64,000 nt of DNA from Tuwongella immobilis. GTDB lineage: Bacteria > Planctomycetota > Planctomycetia > Gemmatales > Gemmataceae. Position 1 is the first letter of the stretch. Each line of letters begins with the position of its first letter. Position numbers and translations under genes: made by a program. Below are positions 4,152-12,254 of this stretch, piece after piece. The stretch is taken from the NCBI RefSeq assembly GCF_901538355.1, contig NZ_LR593887.1:62001-126000 (forward strand). The letters are read 5' to 3'. The notes beneath the pieces are model-generated. The model did no database searches. It worked only from the letters and a program-made list of their open reading frames with translations, and had not been told where the DNA came from.

Positions 4152-4206
4152 TTGACAGCGGGTGCGATCCTTGCATAATGCAATCATATCGCTTGCGTTT
4201 TGCAAG
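4152..4206 (+). promoter_or_regulatory. Promoter with two palindromic operator candidates, HxlR/QueG-like divergon
   Basis: A plus-strand promoter is visible: TTGACA (4152-4157), 16 bp, CATAAT (4174-4179). A perfect palindrome TTGCATAATGCAA (4171-4183) covers the -10 box, and a second inverted repeat CTTGCGTTTTGCAAG (4192-4206) follows, sharing the TTGC/GCAA half-site. A dimeric repressor bound there would block RNA polymerase. The neighbouring HxlR protein is the obvious candidate; its binding is inference. Confidence 0.65.
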
Positions 4207-4235
4207 TGAGTTTCTCCAGTGGAGCGCCTCACCTC

Positions 4236-5567
4236 ATGAAATTGGAACACCACCCTACCGTATTGGAACTGCGCCGTCGGGAGAAGGGGACAACTCCGGA
4301 GCGCATCTCGGCGGCGGAGCTTCGGGAGTTCGCTTTGCGGGCTGGTGCGGATGATGCGGGGGTGATTGGCATCGATCGGCCCGAAATTGCCGATCAGCGG
4401 GACGAGATTTTGCATGCCTTTCCGAAGACGCGAGCGCTGGTGAGTTTGGTCTGCCGGATGCATCGTGAGCCGATTCGTTCGCCCAAGCGATCGATTGCGA
4501 ATCTGGAATTTCATCAATCGACAGATCATGTCAATGAAGTCGCCCGCACGTTGGTGCAATTGCTCGAAACGCGGGGAATTCGCTCGCTCAATCCGCCATC
4601 GGGATTTCCGATGGAGATGACCGAGTACCCCGGCAAAATCTGGGTCGTCTCGCACAAACCAGTCGCGGTGGCGGCGGGCATGGGACAGATGGGCATCCAT
4701 CGCAACGTGATTCATCCGCGATTCGGCAACTTCATTCTGCTGGGGACGGTGTTGGTGGCAGCCGAAATCGACGAGGAGCAGCAGGGGCGGGCGATTGATT
4801 TCAACCCGTGCCTGGGATGCAAATTGTGTGTGGCCGCCTGTCCGGTCGGGGCGATCAAACCGGATGGTCAGTTTGATCCCAGTGCGTGTCTGACGCACAA
4901 CTACCGCGAATTTATGGGTGGGTTTCTCGATTTCAGCAACCATGCACGCGGCAAGCACGATGCATCGGGCGATGCGGATCGCTGGGCGGATACCGAGACG
5001 GCATCGATGTGGCAGAGCCTGAGTTTCGGTGCGAATTACAAGGCAGCGTATTGCCTGGCGGTCTGTCCGGCGGGGGAAGAGGTCATCTCACCGTATTTGG
5101 ACAATCCGAAGGAATTTCGAGATGCCACCCTTCGGCCACTGGTCGAAAAGACCGAGACCATCTATGTGGTTCCACAATCCGATGCGGAGACATATGTGCA
5201 ACGACGATTCCCGCACAAGCGCATTCAGCGGGTGCCCGGAGTGCGACCGCGGACGATTGCCGGGTTCCTGCGTGGGATGTCAATCGTCTTCCAGTCGGGG
5301 AAGTCGGCAGGGTTGGATGCGGTGTACCACTTCCAATTCCATGGAGCCGAAACCGCCGAGGCGACGGTGACGATCCGCAATCAACGCATCACGATTGAAT
5401 CGGGGCTGATCGGCACGCCGACCATCCGAATCGTCGCCGATGCTCAAACCTGGATCGGATTTCTTCGCAAAGAGCGATCCATCGTCTGGGCGATGATTCG
5501 ACGAAAAGTTCGAGTCACGGGCTCGCTCCGATGGTTGTTGGCATTCGGAAAATGCTTCCCATCGTAA
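4236..5567 (+). CDS. QueG-like 4Fe-4S oxidoreductase with C-terminal SCP2-like domain
   Basis: The 443-residue protein has an N-terminal region resembling epoxyqueuosine reductase QueG (residues about 25-180, with the GQMGIHRNVIHPRFGN segment typical of the cobalamin/FeS reductase fold). A ferredoxin-type Cys motif follows at C192, C195, C198 and C202, with further Cys at C218, C273 and C277, enough for two [4Fe-4S] clusters. Residues about 325-443 look like an SCP2 sterol-carrier domain, which QueG lacks. I therefore do not call it QueG; a reductase acting on a lipid-like or hydrophobic substrate is possible. The start at 4236 (ATG, GGAG about 12 nt upstream) is preferred to a TTG at 4200 that lies inside the operator. 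Confidence 0.75.
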   Translation: MKLEHHPTVLELRRREKGTTPERISAAELREFALRAGADDAGVIGIDRPEIADQRDEILHAFPKTRALVSLVCRMHREPIRSPKRSIANLEFHQSTDHVNEVARTLVQLLETRGIRSLNPPSGFPMEMTEYPGKIWVVSHKPVAVAAGMGQMGIHRNVIHPRFGNFILLGTVLVAAEIDEEQQGRAIDFNPCLGCKLCVAACPVGAIKPDGQFDPSACLTHNYREFMGGFLDFSNHARGKHDASGDADRWADTETASMWQSLSFGANYKAAYCLAVCPAGEEVISPYLDNPKEFRDATLRPLVEKTETIYVVPQSDAETYVQRRFPHKRIQRVPGVRPRTIAGFLRGMSIVFQSGKSAGLDAVYHFQFHGAETAEATVTIRNQRITIESGLIGTPTIRIVADAQTWIGFLRKERSIVWAMIRRKVRVTGSLRWLLAFGKCFPS

Positions 5568-5914: not shown

Positions 5915-8107
5915 ATGGATTCGGTTGCCCTCCTTGCCCGGTTGTGTCGTGTCTTGGAACTTCCGGTTCGAGAAGCGGATCTCGAACGCATTTGGCAACG
6001 GACGTTCCCCACGGCGGATGTGACAGAACAAAATTGGGCCGATCGCTTGAATGCGGCGGGCCGTGCGTTGGGGTTCCGGGTGTCGCCGATTCGGCTGCCG
6101 CTGGCCGACGCCGTCCGCGAAGCTGCCCCGGCATTCCCGCTCATCACCCGCATCAGCACCGAAGAGGGGCCGGATTGGTTGGTGTTGTTGGAAGGATTCG
6201 GGGGGACTGTCGAAGTCATCCGCTCCCGAAGTCCGCAAGAGCGTGAGACAATCTCGGTCAACGAACTAACCGCACTGGTTGGGCCGGGATTCGCCACCGC
6301 GCCGCTACTCTGGCAGATGGCCATTCCCAGCCAGCCGATGGACAATCTGCGATCGGCCAATCTCGACAGCCATGAGTCGGGGTACGCCGGCGAAGATGTG
6401 CAAGAGCAATCGGCTCATCATGTGATCGAACAATACGATCCCGAACATTCCAATCATCATGCGCACGGGAACGACCATCATGGCGAGCCTCGTCCGCTGA
6501 GCCGAATCTGGCAACTGTTGCGATTGGAGATGGGCGACATCTTCCGCATCGTGCTATTTGCGGTGGGCGTGGGCATTCTCTCGCTGGCGACACCGATTGC
6601 CATTGAAGCGTTGGTCAACACGGTCGCCAACGGTGTGGTGCTGCAACCGGTGATTGTGCTGTCGCTGGTCCTCCTGGGCTGCTTGATGCTGGCCGGGATG
6701 TTGCGATTGTTGCAGGTGTACATTATCGAATGTATCCAGAGGCGATTGTTCATCCGCGTTGCCGGGGATTTCGCCCAGCGATTTCCTCGCGTGCGACTGG
6801 AAGTGTACGAAACCAGTTTCGGCCCCGACTTGGCCAACCGCTTCTTTGATGTGGTCAAGGTGCAGAAGGCGGTTGCCACGCTGTTGCTCGATGGCGTCGC
6901 CATTGTCGTGGCCACCGTCGTGGGGATGAGCGTACTCGCGTTCTATCACCCGTATCTGATCGGCTTCGATATCGCGCTGTTGGTCGGGCTAGGCTTCTTG
7001 ATCTTCGTGTTGGGGCGCGGCGGGATTCGGACTGGCATCGCCGAATCGCAGATCAAGTACGACCTCGCCGCGTGGTTGGAAGAACCCGCGCGATTGCCCC
7101 GAAGCTTCAAGACTGGTCACGGGGAAAATCTGGCGGTGGTTCGAGCAAACGAATTGGCCCATGCGTATGTGCGGGCCCGTCGCCGTCACTTTGCGATTAT
7201 CTTCCGACAAACGTGGTTCGCCATTGGCCTGCAAGTGGTGACCAGCTCCACGCTATTGGGATTGGGCGGCTATCTGGTCATCATCCAAGAATTGACCATG
7301 GGCCAACTCATCGCGGCGGAGTTGATTATTTCGCTAATCGTTAGTTCGTTCAATAAGTTGGGCAAATATCTGGAGACGTTCTACGATCTCTGCGTTGGGG
7401 TCGAGAAGCTGGGGCATATTATTGACCTGCCGGTCGAGAACAAAGGCGGGCGATTGCTGCCGATGACGAGCATGGGCCTGGAAGTGCAAGCCGTCGATTT
7501 GGAAACCCGCCGTCATCAGCATTGGACGTTTCGTGTGAAGTCGAACGAGCGTCTGGCGATCGAGATGCCCGATGGGGTGCAGCCGCTCGGCGATTGGGTC
7601 ATCGGTTGGCGATTGCACCGACATGGGAAGCTGCTCTTGGACGGCATCGACATGCAAGATCTCGATCCGTTCTCGGTTCGCACGCAGGTTGCGGTGGTGG
7701 GCAATGACAGTCCGGTGGCCGGGACCGTGGAAGAGAATCTGCGGTTGGGCGGTGTCGAGGCGACCGAAGAAGAACTGCTGGCCGCGTTGCGAGCGGTGGG
7801 GCTGGGCGAGCGATTCGGGAATTCGAGTGAGAATTTGAATATGCAGTTGGTTCCGGCGAGTAATCGCTTGAATCCGGATGAGTATACTTTGTTACAATTG
7901 GCGCGTGCGTTGGTGTCGCGTCCCCGATTGTTGGTGATCGATGGTGCGCTGGACCGAATTGCGCCGCGAGCCGCCGCCTTGGTGCGCGGATTGCTGTGCG
8001 ATCGCAAGGCACCCTGGACGCTGATTCTGATTACCGCACGCCCCGAGTTGGCCTCGTGGTGTGATCGCAAACTCGTGGTGGATGCGTCAACTTCGGTGGA
8101 GGGATGA
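5915..8107 (+). CDS. ABC exporter-like protein with degenerate peptidase and nucleotide-binding domains
   Basis: The 730-residue protein has the layout of a type I secretion ABC exporter. It has an N-terminal domain like the C39 peptidase-like domain (1-130) without a catalytic Cys in place. A His-rich linker follows (168-192). The membrane domain (about 205-500) has hydrophobic spans near 208-232, 244-265, 322-343, 347-366, 430-455 and 464-478. The nucleotide-binding domain (515-730) is degraded. Where Walker A should be (about 547-560) the sequence is LAIEMPDGVQPLGD. The Q-loop Gln is Asn597. The LSGGQ region reads RLNPDEYT (651-658). Walker B is RLLVIDG with Gly instead of the catalytic Glu. 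The H-loop reads TARP with Ala for His. It should not hydrolyse ATP. Start: ATG 5915 with AAGG upstream. HlyD- and TolC-like genes follow. Confidence 0.85.
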   Translation: MDSVALLARLCRVLELPVREADLERIWQRTFPTADVTEQNWADRLNAAGRALGFRVSPIRLPLADAVREAAPAFPLITRISTEEGPDWLVLLEGFGGTVEVIRSRSPQERETISVNELTALVGPGFATAPLLWQMAIPSQPMDNLRSANLDSHESGYAGEDVQEQSAHHVIEQYDPEHSNHHAHGNDHHGEPRPLSRIWQLLRLEMGDIFRIVLFAVGVGILSLATPIAIEALVNTVANGVVLQPVIVLSLVLLGCLMLAGMLRLLQVYIIECIQRRLFIRVAGDFAQRFPRVRLEVYETSFGPDLANRFFDVVKVQKAVATLLLDGVAIVVATVVGMSVLAFYHPYLIGFDIALLVGLGFLIFVLGRGGIRTGIAESQIKYDLAAWLEEPARLPRSFKTGHGENLAVVRANELAHAYVRARRRHFAIIFRQTWFAIGLQVVTSSTLLGLGGYLVIIQELTMGQLIAAELIISLIVSSFNKLGKYLETFYDLCVGVEKLGHIIDLPVENKGGRLLPMTSMGLEVQAVDLETRRHQHWTFRVKSNERLAIEMPDGVQPLGDWVIGWRLHRHGKLLLDGIDMQDLDPFSVRTQVAVVGNDSPVAGTVEENLRLGGVEATEEELLAALRAVGLGERFGNSSENLNMQLVPASNRLNPDEYTLLQLARALVSRPRLLVIDGALDRIAPRAAALVRGLLCDRKAPWTLILITARPELASWCDRKLVVDASTSVEG

Positions 8108-8135
8108 GTCGTTAACCCGACAGTCATCAAAACGC

Positions 8136-9521
8136 ATGAATGCTCCGTTACAAGTCTCAACGCCGAGTGTGGTGAATCCGACGATCTTGCCTGCCATGTC
8201 CGAAGTGCGGACACCGCGGATCGCTCGGATTACCGGACGCTTATTGATTGCGTTCTTCCTGATCACGCCGATCATTCTGATCTTCGTTCCGTGGGTGCAA
8301 ACCATCCAGGCACGCGGGCGGGTGATTGCGTGGTTACCCACCGAACGGGAACAACCCGTCACGGCTCGCGTCTCCGGCCAGATTCGAAAATGGCACGTTA
8401 CGGAGACAGATCGAGTAAATGCCGGTGACCCGATTGTCGATATAGACGATACAGACGTTGAACTCGGCAGCCGATTAGCCGCTCAACGCGAATTTTTGCT
8501 CAACCGGAAGCTGGCTGTTACCAAGCAGTTGGAAGAACAATCGGATGTAGCCGCTTCGCAGACATCAGCCCGAGATGCGGCGGTTCGGGCGGCCCAAGCC
8601 TCGATGCAGGCCAGCGAACAATCGGTGCTGACCACCAAGGCATCGCTGCGAGCGGCGGAAGCGGTCGTCGCCTACGAAAGTGTCCGCTATAAGACGTTCG
8701 ATGAACTGTTGAAGAATCCCAAGGGTGGCTTGGAATCGGAACTGAATGTTCGTTCCGCATTTGCGACCCTGCGACGAGCCGAAGAAGATGTCGCGCGGTT
8801 GACCGAGGAAGTGAAGCGGGCCGAAGCGGGCGTCAAGCAAGCCTACGCCGCGTTTCGCAAGGCGGAAGCAGACGGGGCGGCATCGATCGCCACCGCGAAT
8901 GCGAACCTGGCCCGAACCGAACAAGACCTCAACGCCATTGAACGGGAATTGCAAGACATCGAGAATCGGATCGAACGCTACAAAGCGCGACTGCTGACCG
9001 CCCCGTGCGATGGCACCGTGCTGCGAATCGAACCGGATGCCTCGCAAGTGGGGCAGTATGTCAAAGAAGGCCAAGTGGTTTGCGTGATTGTGCCCGATAC
9101 CGCCACTCCCGTGGTGGAATTGTTTGTGAGCGGGGTGGATGCCCCGTTAGTTCCGCCGGAAAGCTCCACGGATGACTGGCCGCATGTGCGGTTGCAGTTC
9201 GAGGGGTGGCCGGCGGTTCAGTTTTCCGGGTACCCGCAAATGTCGATTGGAACTTTCGGCGGTCGAGTGTTTCGAATGGATCCGACGAATGTGCAGAATC
9301 AGTTCCGCATCTTGGTCAAACCGGATCAACTGTACGAACGAGATGATTGGCCCGATTCGATGTTCCTGCGACAAGGGAACGCGGCGATGGGATACATCCA
9401 ACTTCGCAGCGTGCCGTTGGGTTGGGAACTGTGGCGGCGGATGAACGGCTTCCCGGCGATGACTCCTCCGAAGGAATACAACAAGTCGGAGAAGGTGAAA
9501 CCGCCCAAACTGAAGGTGTAA
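8136..9521 (+). CDS. HlyD-type periplasmic adaptor (membrane fusion protein)
   Basis: The 461-residue protein has one N-terminal membrane span (about 34-53), the split lipoyl motif (VTARVSGQIRKWHVTETDRVNAGDPIVDID, 76-104) and a long helical hairpin (about 115-290, Ala/Glu/Arg-rich). The second lipoyl half contains LTAPCDGTVLRIEPDASQVG, and a beta-barrel C-terminus follows. This is the standard plan of adaptors linking an inner-membrane exporter to a TolC-type channel. It starts 28 bp after the exporter stop and ends 2 bp before the channel gene. A later ATG (8196) is possible, but 8136 keeps a normal spacing. Confidence 0.9.
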   Translation: MNAPLQVSTPSVVNPTILPAMSEVRTPRIARITGRLLIAFFLITPIILIFVPWVQTIQARGRVIAWLPTEREQPVTARVSGQIRKWHVTETDRVNAGDPIVDIDDTDVELGSRLAAQREFLLNRKLAVTKQLEEQSDVAASQTSARDAAVRAAQASMQASEQSVLTTKASLRAAEAVVAYESVRYKTFDELLKNPKGGLESELNVRSAFATLRRAEEDVARLTEEVKRAEAGVKQAYAAFRKAEADGAASIATANANLARTEQDLNAIERELQDIENRIERYKARLLTAPCDGTVLRIEPDASQVGQYVKEGQVVCVIVPDTATPVVELFVSGVDAPLVPPESSTDDWPHVRLQFEGWPAVQFSGYPQMSIGTFGGRVFRMDPTNVQNQFRILVKPDQLYERDDWPDSMFLRQGNAAMGYIQLRSVPLGWELWRRMNGFPAMTPPKEYNKSEKVKPPKLKV

Positions 9522-9523
9522 CC

Positions 9524-11227
9524 ATGAAGCGATGGACATGGACGTCCTGGCTACTCGGCATCAGCATGGGGTGCGGTCTGGCTCACGCCCAAGAGCCGGC
9601 CGCGTTGGCCCCCCCGATGTCGGGGGGAGCGAATCCTCCCAATGGGGCTGCCCAACCGAATCCGGTTCCGACTCCGCTGGGAATGCCCCGTCCGTTGGGG
9701 CAACCCGGTGCCGTTCCGCCGAATGGAGCGCTGCCTCCGGGCTTCCCCCAACCGGGTGGATTACCCCAACCGGTGATCCCGCCCCGAATCGGGATGCCGA
9801 ATTTCGCTCCGAATCCACGTCCACTACCCGAGCTTCCCGCGCCCGTGGCGGCACTGCCGCTGCGGGGGACGGAATACAGTCTCACCGACGGTCCGTTGGA
9901 TCTCGGCGAAGTTCTCAACTCCGTCGAACAATCTTACCCCACGCTATTGGCCGTCCTGCAAGAGCGAGCTGTGGCCGATGGCCGTCGCCTCTCGGCGATG
10001 GGGGCATTCGACACCAATCTGAAGGCGAATTCCTTGAATGTTCCTGCGGGAACGTATGAGAACAATCGCTTCGCCGTTGGGGTCGATCAAGCCTTCATGA
10101 ATAGCGGGGTCACCACCTTCGCTGGCTATCGCGGCGGATATGGCGACTTCCAGACCTATTATCTGGACCGCAAAACCGCATTGGGTGGCGAATTGAAAGC
10201 GGGCGTGTTGGTGCCGTTGCTAAAAGACAATGACATCGACAAACGCCGAGCGACGCTGTTCAAGGCCGATATCGATCGGGCATTGGTCGAACCATCGATC
10301 GAACGCCAACGATTGGATCTGCAACGGGCTGCCGCTCGCGCCTACTGGTTCTGGGTGGCGGCGGGCATCCGCGTCCGAATCGCCAAGGAACTCTACCAGC
10401 TTGCCCTGGAGCGAGATTCGCAATTGGCGGATCGCGTGGCTCGGGGCGCTCAGGCGGAAATCGAACGGGTTGACAATCAGCAGAATGTCGCGGCACGGGC
10501 GAGTCTGTTGGCCCAAGCCGAACAAGTGTTTCAGCAAGCGGCCATTGATTTGTCGCTGTTCCTTCGAGATTCGGCGGGTCGTGCGTTGATTCCGGCGGCG
10601 AGTCGGTTGCCGAAGATTGCCACGCCGCAACCGCTGCAGGGGGATCAGCTCGATCAGGCGATTCAACTCGCGTACCGATTGCGGCCCGAATTGGTGCGAC
10701 TGCGGTTGCAGCGAGACAAACTGCGGGTCGATTTGCGGCTCGCGGAAAATCAGATGCTCCCCGGTTTGAATCTCTACCTGACCGGCTCGCAGGATATGGG
10801 CTCTGGCAAGAGTTCGACCAGTGGTCCGAACGGTCTCGATCGCTCCGCGCTGGATACCGGGGTGGAGTTCTCCGTGCCGGTGCAACGACGCGAAGCCCGT
10901 GGGCAGATTATCTCCATCAATGCCCAGCTGGCGCAACTCAACCAACAGGAGCGACTTGCGATTGATGCCATTCGTGCCGAGGTGCAAAATTCGTGGACGT
11001 CGCTGGATCGCATCTACGAAGCCTGGCGGCAGACTAAGGCGCGGGTTGATTTGGCTCGCACGGTTGCCGAAGCGGAGCGGGAGCAGTTTCGACTCGGTCG
11101 ATCGACGATTCTAACCGTCACGCTGCGAGAGCAAGCCGCGTTCGATGCCGAGGTGAGTCTGATTCTGGCGGCGGCGGATTACTTCCGTTCGCTGGCCGAC
11201 TATCGGGCCGCGCTCGGAGTGCGCTAA
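9524..11227 (+). CDS. TolC-family outer membrane efflux protein
   Basis: The 567-residue protein has a signal peptide (1-22, MKRWTWTSWLLGISMGCGLA then HAQ) and an unusual Pro/Gly/Asn-rich segment (about 25-110). The OEP fold then shows two long alpha-helical repeats. LGEVLNSVEQSYPTLLAVLQ and AIQLAYRLRPELVRLRLQRD mark the two pseudo-repeats, and YRAALGVR ends the second. It should trimerise into the outer-membrane channel of the system. It starts 2 bp after the adaptor gene, so all three are co-transcribed. The Pro-rich extension is longer than usual for TolC proteins. Confidence 0.9.
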   Translation: MKRWTWTSWLLGISMGCGLAHAQEPAALAPPMSGGANPPNGAAQPNPVPTPLGMPRPLGQPGAVPPNGALPPGFPQPGGLPQPVIPPRIGMPNFAPNPRPLPELPAPVAALPLRGTEYSLTDGPLDLGEVLNSVEQSYPTLLAVLQERAVADGRRLSAMGAFDTNLKANSLNVPAGTYENNRFAVGVDQAFMNSGVTTFAGYRGGYGDFQTYYLDRKTALGGELKAGVLVPLLKDNDIDKRRATLFKADIDRALVEPSIERQRLDLQRAAARAYWFWVAAGIRVRIAKELYQLALERDSQLADRVARGAQAEIERVDNQQNVAARASLLAQAEQVFQQAAIDLSLFLRDSAGRALIPAASRLPKIATPQPLQGDQLDQAIQLAYRLRPELVRLRLQRDKLRVDLRLAENQMLPGLNLYLTGSQDMGSGKSSTSGPNGLDRSALDTGVEFSVPVQRREARGQIISINAQLAQLNQQERLAIDAIRAEVQNSWTSLDRIYEAWRQTKARVDLARTVAEAEREQFRLGRSTILTVTLREQAAFDAEVSLILAAADYFRSLADYRAALGVR

Positions 11228-11297: not shown

Positions 11298-11351
11298 GCC
11301 AAAGTCCAATCGGTTTCTGCGTTTCGTGCGCAAAATCGGTTGGGCTTTGGC
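11298..11351 (+). terminator. Long hairpin terminator after the exporter operon
   Basis: The arms 11298-11321 (GCCAAAGTCCAATCGGTTTC then TGCG) and 11329-11351 (CGCAAAATCGGTTGGGCTTT then GGC) pair over about 22 bp, with G-U wobbles and one bulged C. The 3' side is followed by GTTTCCATT, only weakly T-rich. Its place 70 bp after the TolC stop fits an operon terminator. Confidence 0.6.
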
Positions 11352-11411
11352 GTTTCCATTCCGAATAATCGATTATCCGCTCGCCCGCGGATAGATCCGG
11401 GAGGATGCACC

Positions 11412-12254
11412 ATGCGACGACGATCGATTCGGAATCTCTTCATCGGCTCCGTGAGTATCGTTCTGCTGAGTGGAACGTCGGTCTTTGGGCAAATCGTGCC
11501 CAATCGCCTGTTTCAACAACAGGGACTCAGCACCGTTCTGAATACCAGCCCACAATATGTGCCATCCACCGGAACGGGCTACCGACCTGCCGTGGTGCCG
11601 GGCTATCCGTCGGGCTATCGTCCGCCGTTTGTTCCGGGTTCGCCGACGGGGAAGCCGGGCTATCGTCCGCCAGGGGTGTGGGGCGGCGGGGGCGGTTTCT
11701 ATCCGGGTGTGGTGCCGGGGTGGGGGTGGTATGGTGCGGGATTCGGTGGTCAGACGAATATCATTGGCCCGACGGTGATTATTCAGGGGGGCGATGTCGG
11801 GGGCGGATCGGGGACGCTGAATCGACCGGCGTCGATCTTCCAAGACAATTCCTGGCGCACCGAAATGGCCCGAATCCAGAATTCGGTTGAGCGTGCGAAT
11901 GCGGCTCCGACTCCGGTCACGCCATCGCAACCGGCACCGGAACCGATCGTTCGCCCGACCAAAGCCAGCATTGTGCTGAATGTGCCGGATGGTGCCGAAG
12001 TCTATCTCGAAGGGCAATTGATGAAGGGGCAAACCGGCCCGGTACGGCGGTATGCCACACCGGAACTCCAGCCGGGCAAACCATATGTCTATGCGGTGGT
12101 GGTCGTTTGGCAGGAAGGCGAGCGCACGATTCGTCGAGAGCGGGAGATTCCGATTGAAGCGGGCGATCAAGTTCGCTTGACGTTTCAAGTGATCAATGAT
12201 TCGCCCATGGAACCGGAATCGGCCCCACTGCCTGCCCCGACTCGGATGCGGTGA
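11412..12254 (+). CDS. Secreted protein with TIGR03000-type domain
   Basis: The 280-residue protein has a signal peptide (1-26, ending SVFG), then a Gly/Pro/Tyr-rich repeat region (about 45-135, GYRP and PGY motifs). The C-terminal domain (about 185-265) carries the pattern KASIVLNVPDGAEVYLEGQL, RRYATPELQPGKPYVYAVVV and IPIEAGDQVRLTF. This matches TIGR03000, an uncharacterised beta-rich domain of planctomycetes. It is likely exported. It lies right after the exporter operon but beyond a strong hairpin, so it probably has its own promoter. The start at 11412 is the ATG that yields the signal peptide (GGAGG lies just upstream). Confidence 0.8.
   Translation: MRRRSIRNLFIGSVSIVLLSGTSVFGQIVPNRLFQQQGLSTVLNTSPQYVPSTGTGYRPAVVPGYPSGYRPPFVPGSPTGKPGYRPPGVWGGGGGFYPGVVPGWGWYGAGFGGQTNIIGPTVIIQGGDVGGGSGTLNRPASIFQDNSWRTEMARIQNSVERANAAPTPVTPSQPAPEPIVRPTKASIVLNVPDGAEVYLEGQLMKGQTGPVRRYATPELQPGKPYVYAVVVVWQEGERTIRREREIPIEAGDQVRLTFQVINDSPMEPESAPLPAPTRMR

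Follow-up and report, generated by a model that had tools for sequence, protein, structure and literature searches.

A tripartite ABC-exporter-fold family with eroded ATPase motifs in Tuwongella immobilis and other bacteria, and its possible link to inorganic carbon

The window analysed here is a stretch of 64,000 bp covering bases 62001-126000 of the single-contig 6.69 Mb genome of Tuwongella immobilis. It contains an operon for an ABC-exporter-fold protein with a degenerate nucleotide-binding domain (NBD), an HlyD-type adaptor and a TolC-type outer membrane factor. With a confidence somewhat better than even, the trio is read as a tripartite ABC-fold conduit which no longer needs ATP hydrolysis and works with bicarbonate or CO2 handling, its substrate being putative. 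Members of the family occur in many bacteria, mostly planctomycetes. The features of the operon are given in window coordinates, with motif residues numbered from the TTG.

5915..8107, + strand: ABC-exporter-fold protein with degenerate NBD, starting at ATG 5915 (730 aa) or alternatively at TTG 5909 (732 aa); C39-like N-terminal domain at about residues 1-155, membrane domain at about 196-505, NBD at about 524-725
7553..7606, + strand: lost Walker A site, residues 549-566, reading EMPDGV--QPLG; the Lys is gone and two residues are deleted
7922..7960, + strand: Walker B; Asp678 retained, catalytic Glu679 replaced by Gly, family-specific Asp682
8136..9521, + strand: HlyD-type periplasmic adaptor of 461 aa; HlyD_3 match above the Pfam cut-off
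9524..11227, + strand: TolC-type outer membrane factor; OEP match above the Pfam cut-off

The ABC frame (5909/5915-8107) has no internal stop. The HlyD start lies 28 bases after the ABC stop and the TolC ATG lies 2 bases after the HlyD stop. HlyD and TolC partners are encoded in one operon with the ABC gene, as in type I secretion. An earlier note on this DNA had called the frame intact and the partners normal, and both statements held. A promoter and terminator scan gave no more signals than shuffled sequence. The operon is preceded at 4200-5567 by a gene for an iron-sulphur protein resembling QueG, whose C-terminus is weakly SCP2-like. It is followed immediately, at 11340-12254 and on the same strand, by a gene for a TIGR03000 planctomycete-domain protein.

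The ABC protein matched Pfam ABC_membrane at 23.9 bits and ABC_tran at 16.7 bits, both under the cut-off. Its best NCBIfam model was type_I_sec_LssB at 114.6 bits against a cut-off of 693.1. The HlyB and PrtD models scored 83.7 and 64.7 bits, the curated type I secretion ABC models (TIGR03375, TIGR01846 and TIGR01842) stayed below their cut-offs, and no cut-off was reached among the best 25 NCBIfam models listed. The match to the PCAT1 profile spanned profile positions 41 to 708. The AlphaFold model had a mean pLDDT of 83 and a pTM of 0.81, and its best full-length structure matches were PCAT1 and HlyB. The best PDB matches were exporters, with a Z of about 24, about 410-420 residues aligned and an rmsd of about 3-4. 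A fold search with residues 193-732 returned exporters only among the matches listed. On this model the protein is predicted to have the whole type IV ABC exporter fold, its six-helix membrane domain being fused to the NBD, in agreement with the earlier description of a preserved membrane domain and domain plan.

ATP turnover is the defining property of ABC exporters. The window copy was aligned to seven intact or near-intact exporters. Besides the Walker A and Glu changes listed above, its Q-loop region reads VVGNDS with the Gln absent, its signature region reads LNPDE with no LSGGQ, and the H-loop His is replaced by Ala. The five losses first noticed by eye were thereby confirmed, and the Walker B Asp is the sole ATPase motif residue left. 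The aligned position of the C39 catalytic Cys holds Ser, so the domain lacks the catalytic residue of a peptidase, as had also been claimed. This loss is ordinary for HlyB-type exporters according to a passage of PMC8277102. Within its branch the window copy stands at the extreme, and the other Gemmataceae there mostly retain Walker A.

Among 294 genomes of the phylum 35 matched the ABC protein at E <= 1e-20, 29 of these at more than 250 bits. In its own bacterial family, the Gemmataceae, 48 of 95 genomes matched, one at 78 bits only. A scan of named genomes found at least 570 relatives, of which 80 were kept. These come from Planctomycetota, Verrucomicrobiota, Acidobacteriota, Myxococcota, Methylococcales and others, many being MAGs whose labels are possibly wrong. 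Motifs were counted in 122 non-redundant members (138 collected, 133 with a complete NBD), with five incomplete-NBD members and 11 near-duplicates left out. The Walker A Lys was present in 100 members and the Walker B Asp in 119. The catalytic Glu position was Glu in 32 and Gly in 63. The H-loop His was found in 21 members and the signature Ser with the second Gly in 36, and the canonical Q-loop column was empty in 121. All motifs but the Q-loop were kept by 15 members. The full set was present in none of the 122, and the intact orthologues that would have spoken against the earlier note were therefore not found among them. The idea that orthologues share the losses stood in part: the losses are largely shared, but the Walker A Lys was kept by most members and the Glu and His by the smaller numbers given. 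One Gemmataceae subclade (L083, L085, L087, L089-L092, L094, L096 and L098) lacks the Q-loop but still has Walker A, LSLGQ, Glu and His. Genome G309 has two trios on different contigs (L214 and L241), the first without Glu and His (L073).

These counts bear on whether catalysis has been relocated, the NBD of an ordinary ATP-driven exporter hydrolysing ATP through other residues such as Asp682. Most members retain the Walker A Lys and Walker B Asp, and the Asp682 position beside Walker B is near-invariant (Asp in 118 of 122). Glu and His are retained together in 17 members, which may hydrolyse ATP and so count against the hydrolysis-free reading. Relocated or residual catalysis is nevertheless considered unlikely, as the signature and H-loop are also lost in most members and the Walker A Lys is absent in the window copy and 22 others tested.

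Motif erosion is recurrent across the family, because the catalytic states changed many times on the membrane-domain tree. The minimum number of state changes was 14 for Glu, 10 for His and 16 for Walker A, on a tree with very long outgroup branches and an unsure root. The grouping into nine lineages was made by judgement from names and tree. Mean identity within the family was 0.53 in the membrane domain versus 0.38 in the NBD. In intact exporters the order was reversed (0.195 and 0.42), a rough comparison given the small mixed paralogous set. The dN/dS values come from the 45 closest of 676 pairs, with saturated-dS pairs left out. The NBD dN/dS was 0.025-0.25 in close family pairs without Glu and His; the window gene had no close enough relative. 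In the subclade retaining Glu and His the NBD dN/dS reached 0.3-0.74 in low-dS pairs, which counts against the preferred reading.

A pseudogene, sequencing error or frameshift was rejected since the frame is open and the losses are shared with relatives. The low NBD ratios of closely related pairs that lack Glu and His likewise favour the original view that the gene is not a decaying pseudogene. Slow decay, in which function is being lost lineage by lineage, would match the many parallel motif changes and the better conservation of the membrane domain relative to the NBD. It is very improbable in view of the open frames, the intact operons, the low dN/dS that close pairs show in both domains and the tens of membrane-domain positions that are near-invariant across phyla. 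Near-invariant charges, predicted from helix positions to lie in the membrane, were compared between the family and 30 intact exporters. For example, D354 was present in 91% of the family versus 0, R424 in 97% versus 0, R433 in 93% versus 3% and E471 in 97% versus 0.

The trio is conserved as a unit. Of 148 loci, 141 have an HlyD orthologue; the other seven end 1.2 kb or less downstream. HlyD and TolC were both present in 124 of 148, most of the remaining loci being cut by contig ends. Two options had been offered for the complex, a heterodimer with an active ABC protein or a complex that is not ATP-driven. In a heterodimer the degenerate half would pair with an intact exporter encoded elsewhere, and the partner would hydrolyse ATP as in TmrAB and TM287/288. 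Intact ABC exporters do exist in the T. immobilis genome, two groups of intact exporters are found in most of the planctomycetes compared, and heterodimers with a degenerate half are a well-known arrangement (PMC7756269). However, the ABC gene is accompanied by HlyD and TolC genes of its own, and no second exporter gene besides the trio was recurrent at the loci. Across the 11 genomes compared, the family itself was the only exporter group found to reach 40% identity in every one, among the 30 of 48 matches examined. A heterodimer is thus rather doubtful, and because that option gained no support the non-ATP-driven complex is favoured of the two. In L175 a second ABC gene lies in tandem; it was rejected as an exporter half, being by eye a MacB-like fused ABC and permease.

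Another ATPase could also act as motor, for example the secondary SecA_DEAD protein described for planctomycete HlyD-bearing loci. In PMC4452313, SecA_DEAD is described with HlyD, M50 and GAF proteins, a module which resembles the trio in having planctomycete type I secretion-like parts without a normal ABC motor and differs from it in genes and locus. The T. immobilis genome has two SecA_DEAD genes, 18 kb apart.

C1:5307355-5308608: SecA_DEAD gene
C1:5326914-5328104: SecA_DEAD gene

These lie at 5.31 and 5.33 Mb and the trio at 0.07 Mb, and the loci described in PMC4452313 are without an ABC transporter; a motor of this kind is hardly to be expected. A secondary SecA was rejected for the window locus, which has no SecA_DEAD gene.

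The neighbouring genes point towards inorganic carbon and away from protein secretion. No conserved substrate gene was recognised among the recurrent neighbour clusters of the loci. Clusters identified by eye as kinases, DUF1501-like proteins and two-component proteins were found in control regions too. The most frequent neighbours of a non-generic kind were genes for a LysR regulator, for small winged-helix regulators and for inorganic-carbon functions. At least one inorganic-carbon gene (SbtA, DabAB, SulP, carbonic anhydrase or PEP carboxylase) was present in 20 of 147 loci, the window excluded, and in 0 of 38 control stretches. The stretches vary in length, contig ends truncating many of them; the controls comprise 703 kb of sequence, taken from same-phylum genomes at positions hand-picked at round coordinates. 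In 17 of the 20 carbon-bearing loci at least one carbon gene was on the trio strand. Pfam matches confirmed the identity of the carbon genes (Sbt_1, P-II like, DabA, Proton_antipo_M, SulP, Pro_CA and PEPcase). SbtA or DabA occurred in 13 loci versus 0.21 expected from the genome-wide density in 39 trio genomes. The carbon families were picked after viewing clusters in the first 108 loci, and 40 Gemmataceae loci served as a replicate. In the replicate a carbon gene was present in 5 of 40 loci, and SbtA or DabA in 3 versus 0.07 expected. The arrangements included the following.

L220: SbtA, carbonic anhydrase, ABC, HlyD, TolC
L153: SulP, carbonic anhydrase, ABC, HlyD, TolC
L159: SbtA, SbtB, ABC, HlyD, TolC
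L045 and L046: DabB, DabA, (S30AE), ABC, HlyD, TolC
L219 and L242: carbonic anhydrase, ABC, HlyD, TolC

A functional link is likely because unrelated uptake systems adjoin the same trio in different phyla. The member beside carbonic anhydrase in L242 retains Glu and His, which counts against the preferred reading. No carbon gene was present in the stretch examined at 127 of 147 loci, and none was found in the 64 kb window by the models used. These models did detect the DabA and SbtA of the T. immobilis genome, in stretches L289 and L290, as positive controls; both genes are far from the trio. For the window copy a carbon link would be one by homology to the other members. DabA was present in 18 of 29 trio genomes versus 21 of 265 others, and within the class there was no co-occurrence (12 of 17 trio genomes versus 3 of 4 others). 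Sbt_1 showed no association with the trio at genome level (6 of 29 versus 40 of 265). An NhaR-type LysR gene was present in 20 of 147 loci versus 1 of 38 controls, often divergent and directly upstream (e.g. L124:199-1137), and the LysR neighbour passed the NCBIfam NhaR cut-off in both of two tested. A small S30AE-like gene of the ribosome hibernation type was repeatedly seen upstream of the trio (L045:7513-7860 and L135:3288-3632).

In the preferred reading an inner-membrane ABC-exporter-fold dimer, assumed to be a homodimer, would join the HlyD adaptor and TolC duct into an envelope conduit with type I secretion architecture. The NBD would be retained as a structural, perhaps nucleotide-sensing part. 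Repeated loss of the motor, with the membrane path, adaptor and duct remaining constrained, suggests a task without ATP turnover. Conduction or ion coupling would fit because the near-invariant charged residues are absent or rare in intact exporters. A small solute may move down its own gradient or be coupled to an ion gradient, the direction of transport being assumed, with a role in inorganic-carbon or linked pH/Na+ homeostasis. Because the membrane potential would drive an anion outward through a passive path, uptake seems less plausible than a role as valve or exchanger for bicarbonate or base.

CFTR has the ABC-exporter fold with one impaired site and conducts chloride and bicarbonate. 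A bacterial counterpart would be a gradient-driven, perhaps nucleotide-gated conduit for an anion (bicarbonate or a counter-ion), crossing both membranes with HlyD and TolC, serving carbon and pH homeostasis in several phyla and having given up hydrolysis. This further step is speculative and distinctly unlikely; the membrane-domain charges and carbon-gene neighbours are indirect hints of such conductance. The two share the fold and an impaired site, whereas CFTR is eukaryotic, is full-length and has one working site, and the channel activity here is putative.

Type I secretion systems (HlyB/HlyD/TolC, LssB/LapB) share with the trio the three-part set, the HlyD and TolC partners, the type IV exporter fold and a C39-like N-terminal domain without Cys. 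They differ in that here the NBD catalytic motifs are lost or degenerate, no substrate gene is recurrent and carbon genes adjoin. Heterodimeric exporters with one degenerate site (TmrAB, TM287/288, TAP) likewise keep a degenerate NBD by selection; here no active partner was found at the loci or among the matches examined, and a homodimer would have both sites degenerate. If the preferred reading is true, exporter architecture can work without its motor, and a widespread family keeps the fold and tripartite assembly while repeatedly discarding catalytic residues. The neighbourhood would suggest an unrecognised component of bacterial bicarbonate handling. Among open PMC articles no paper was recognised as describing the ABC family or its carbon link. 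According to PMC13274458, acid-adapted Methylomicrobium album BG8 carried mutations in an adaptor gene (Metal_2567) and a TolC gene (Metal_2569) of what is apparently a second type I secretion cluster, which is possibly a member of the same family.
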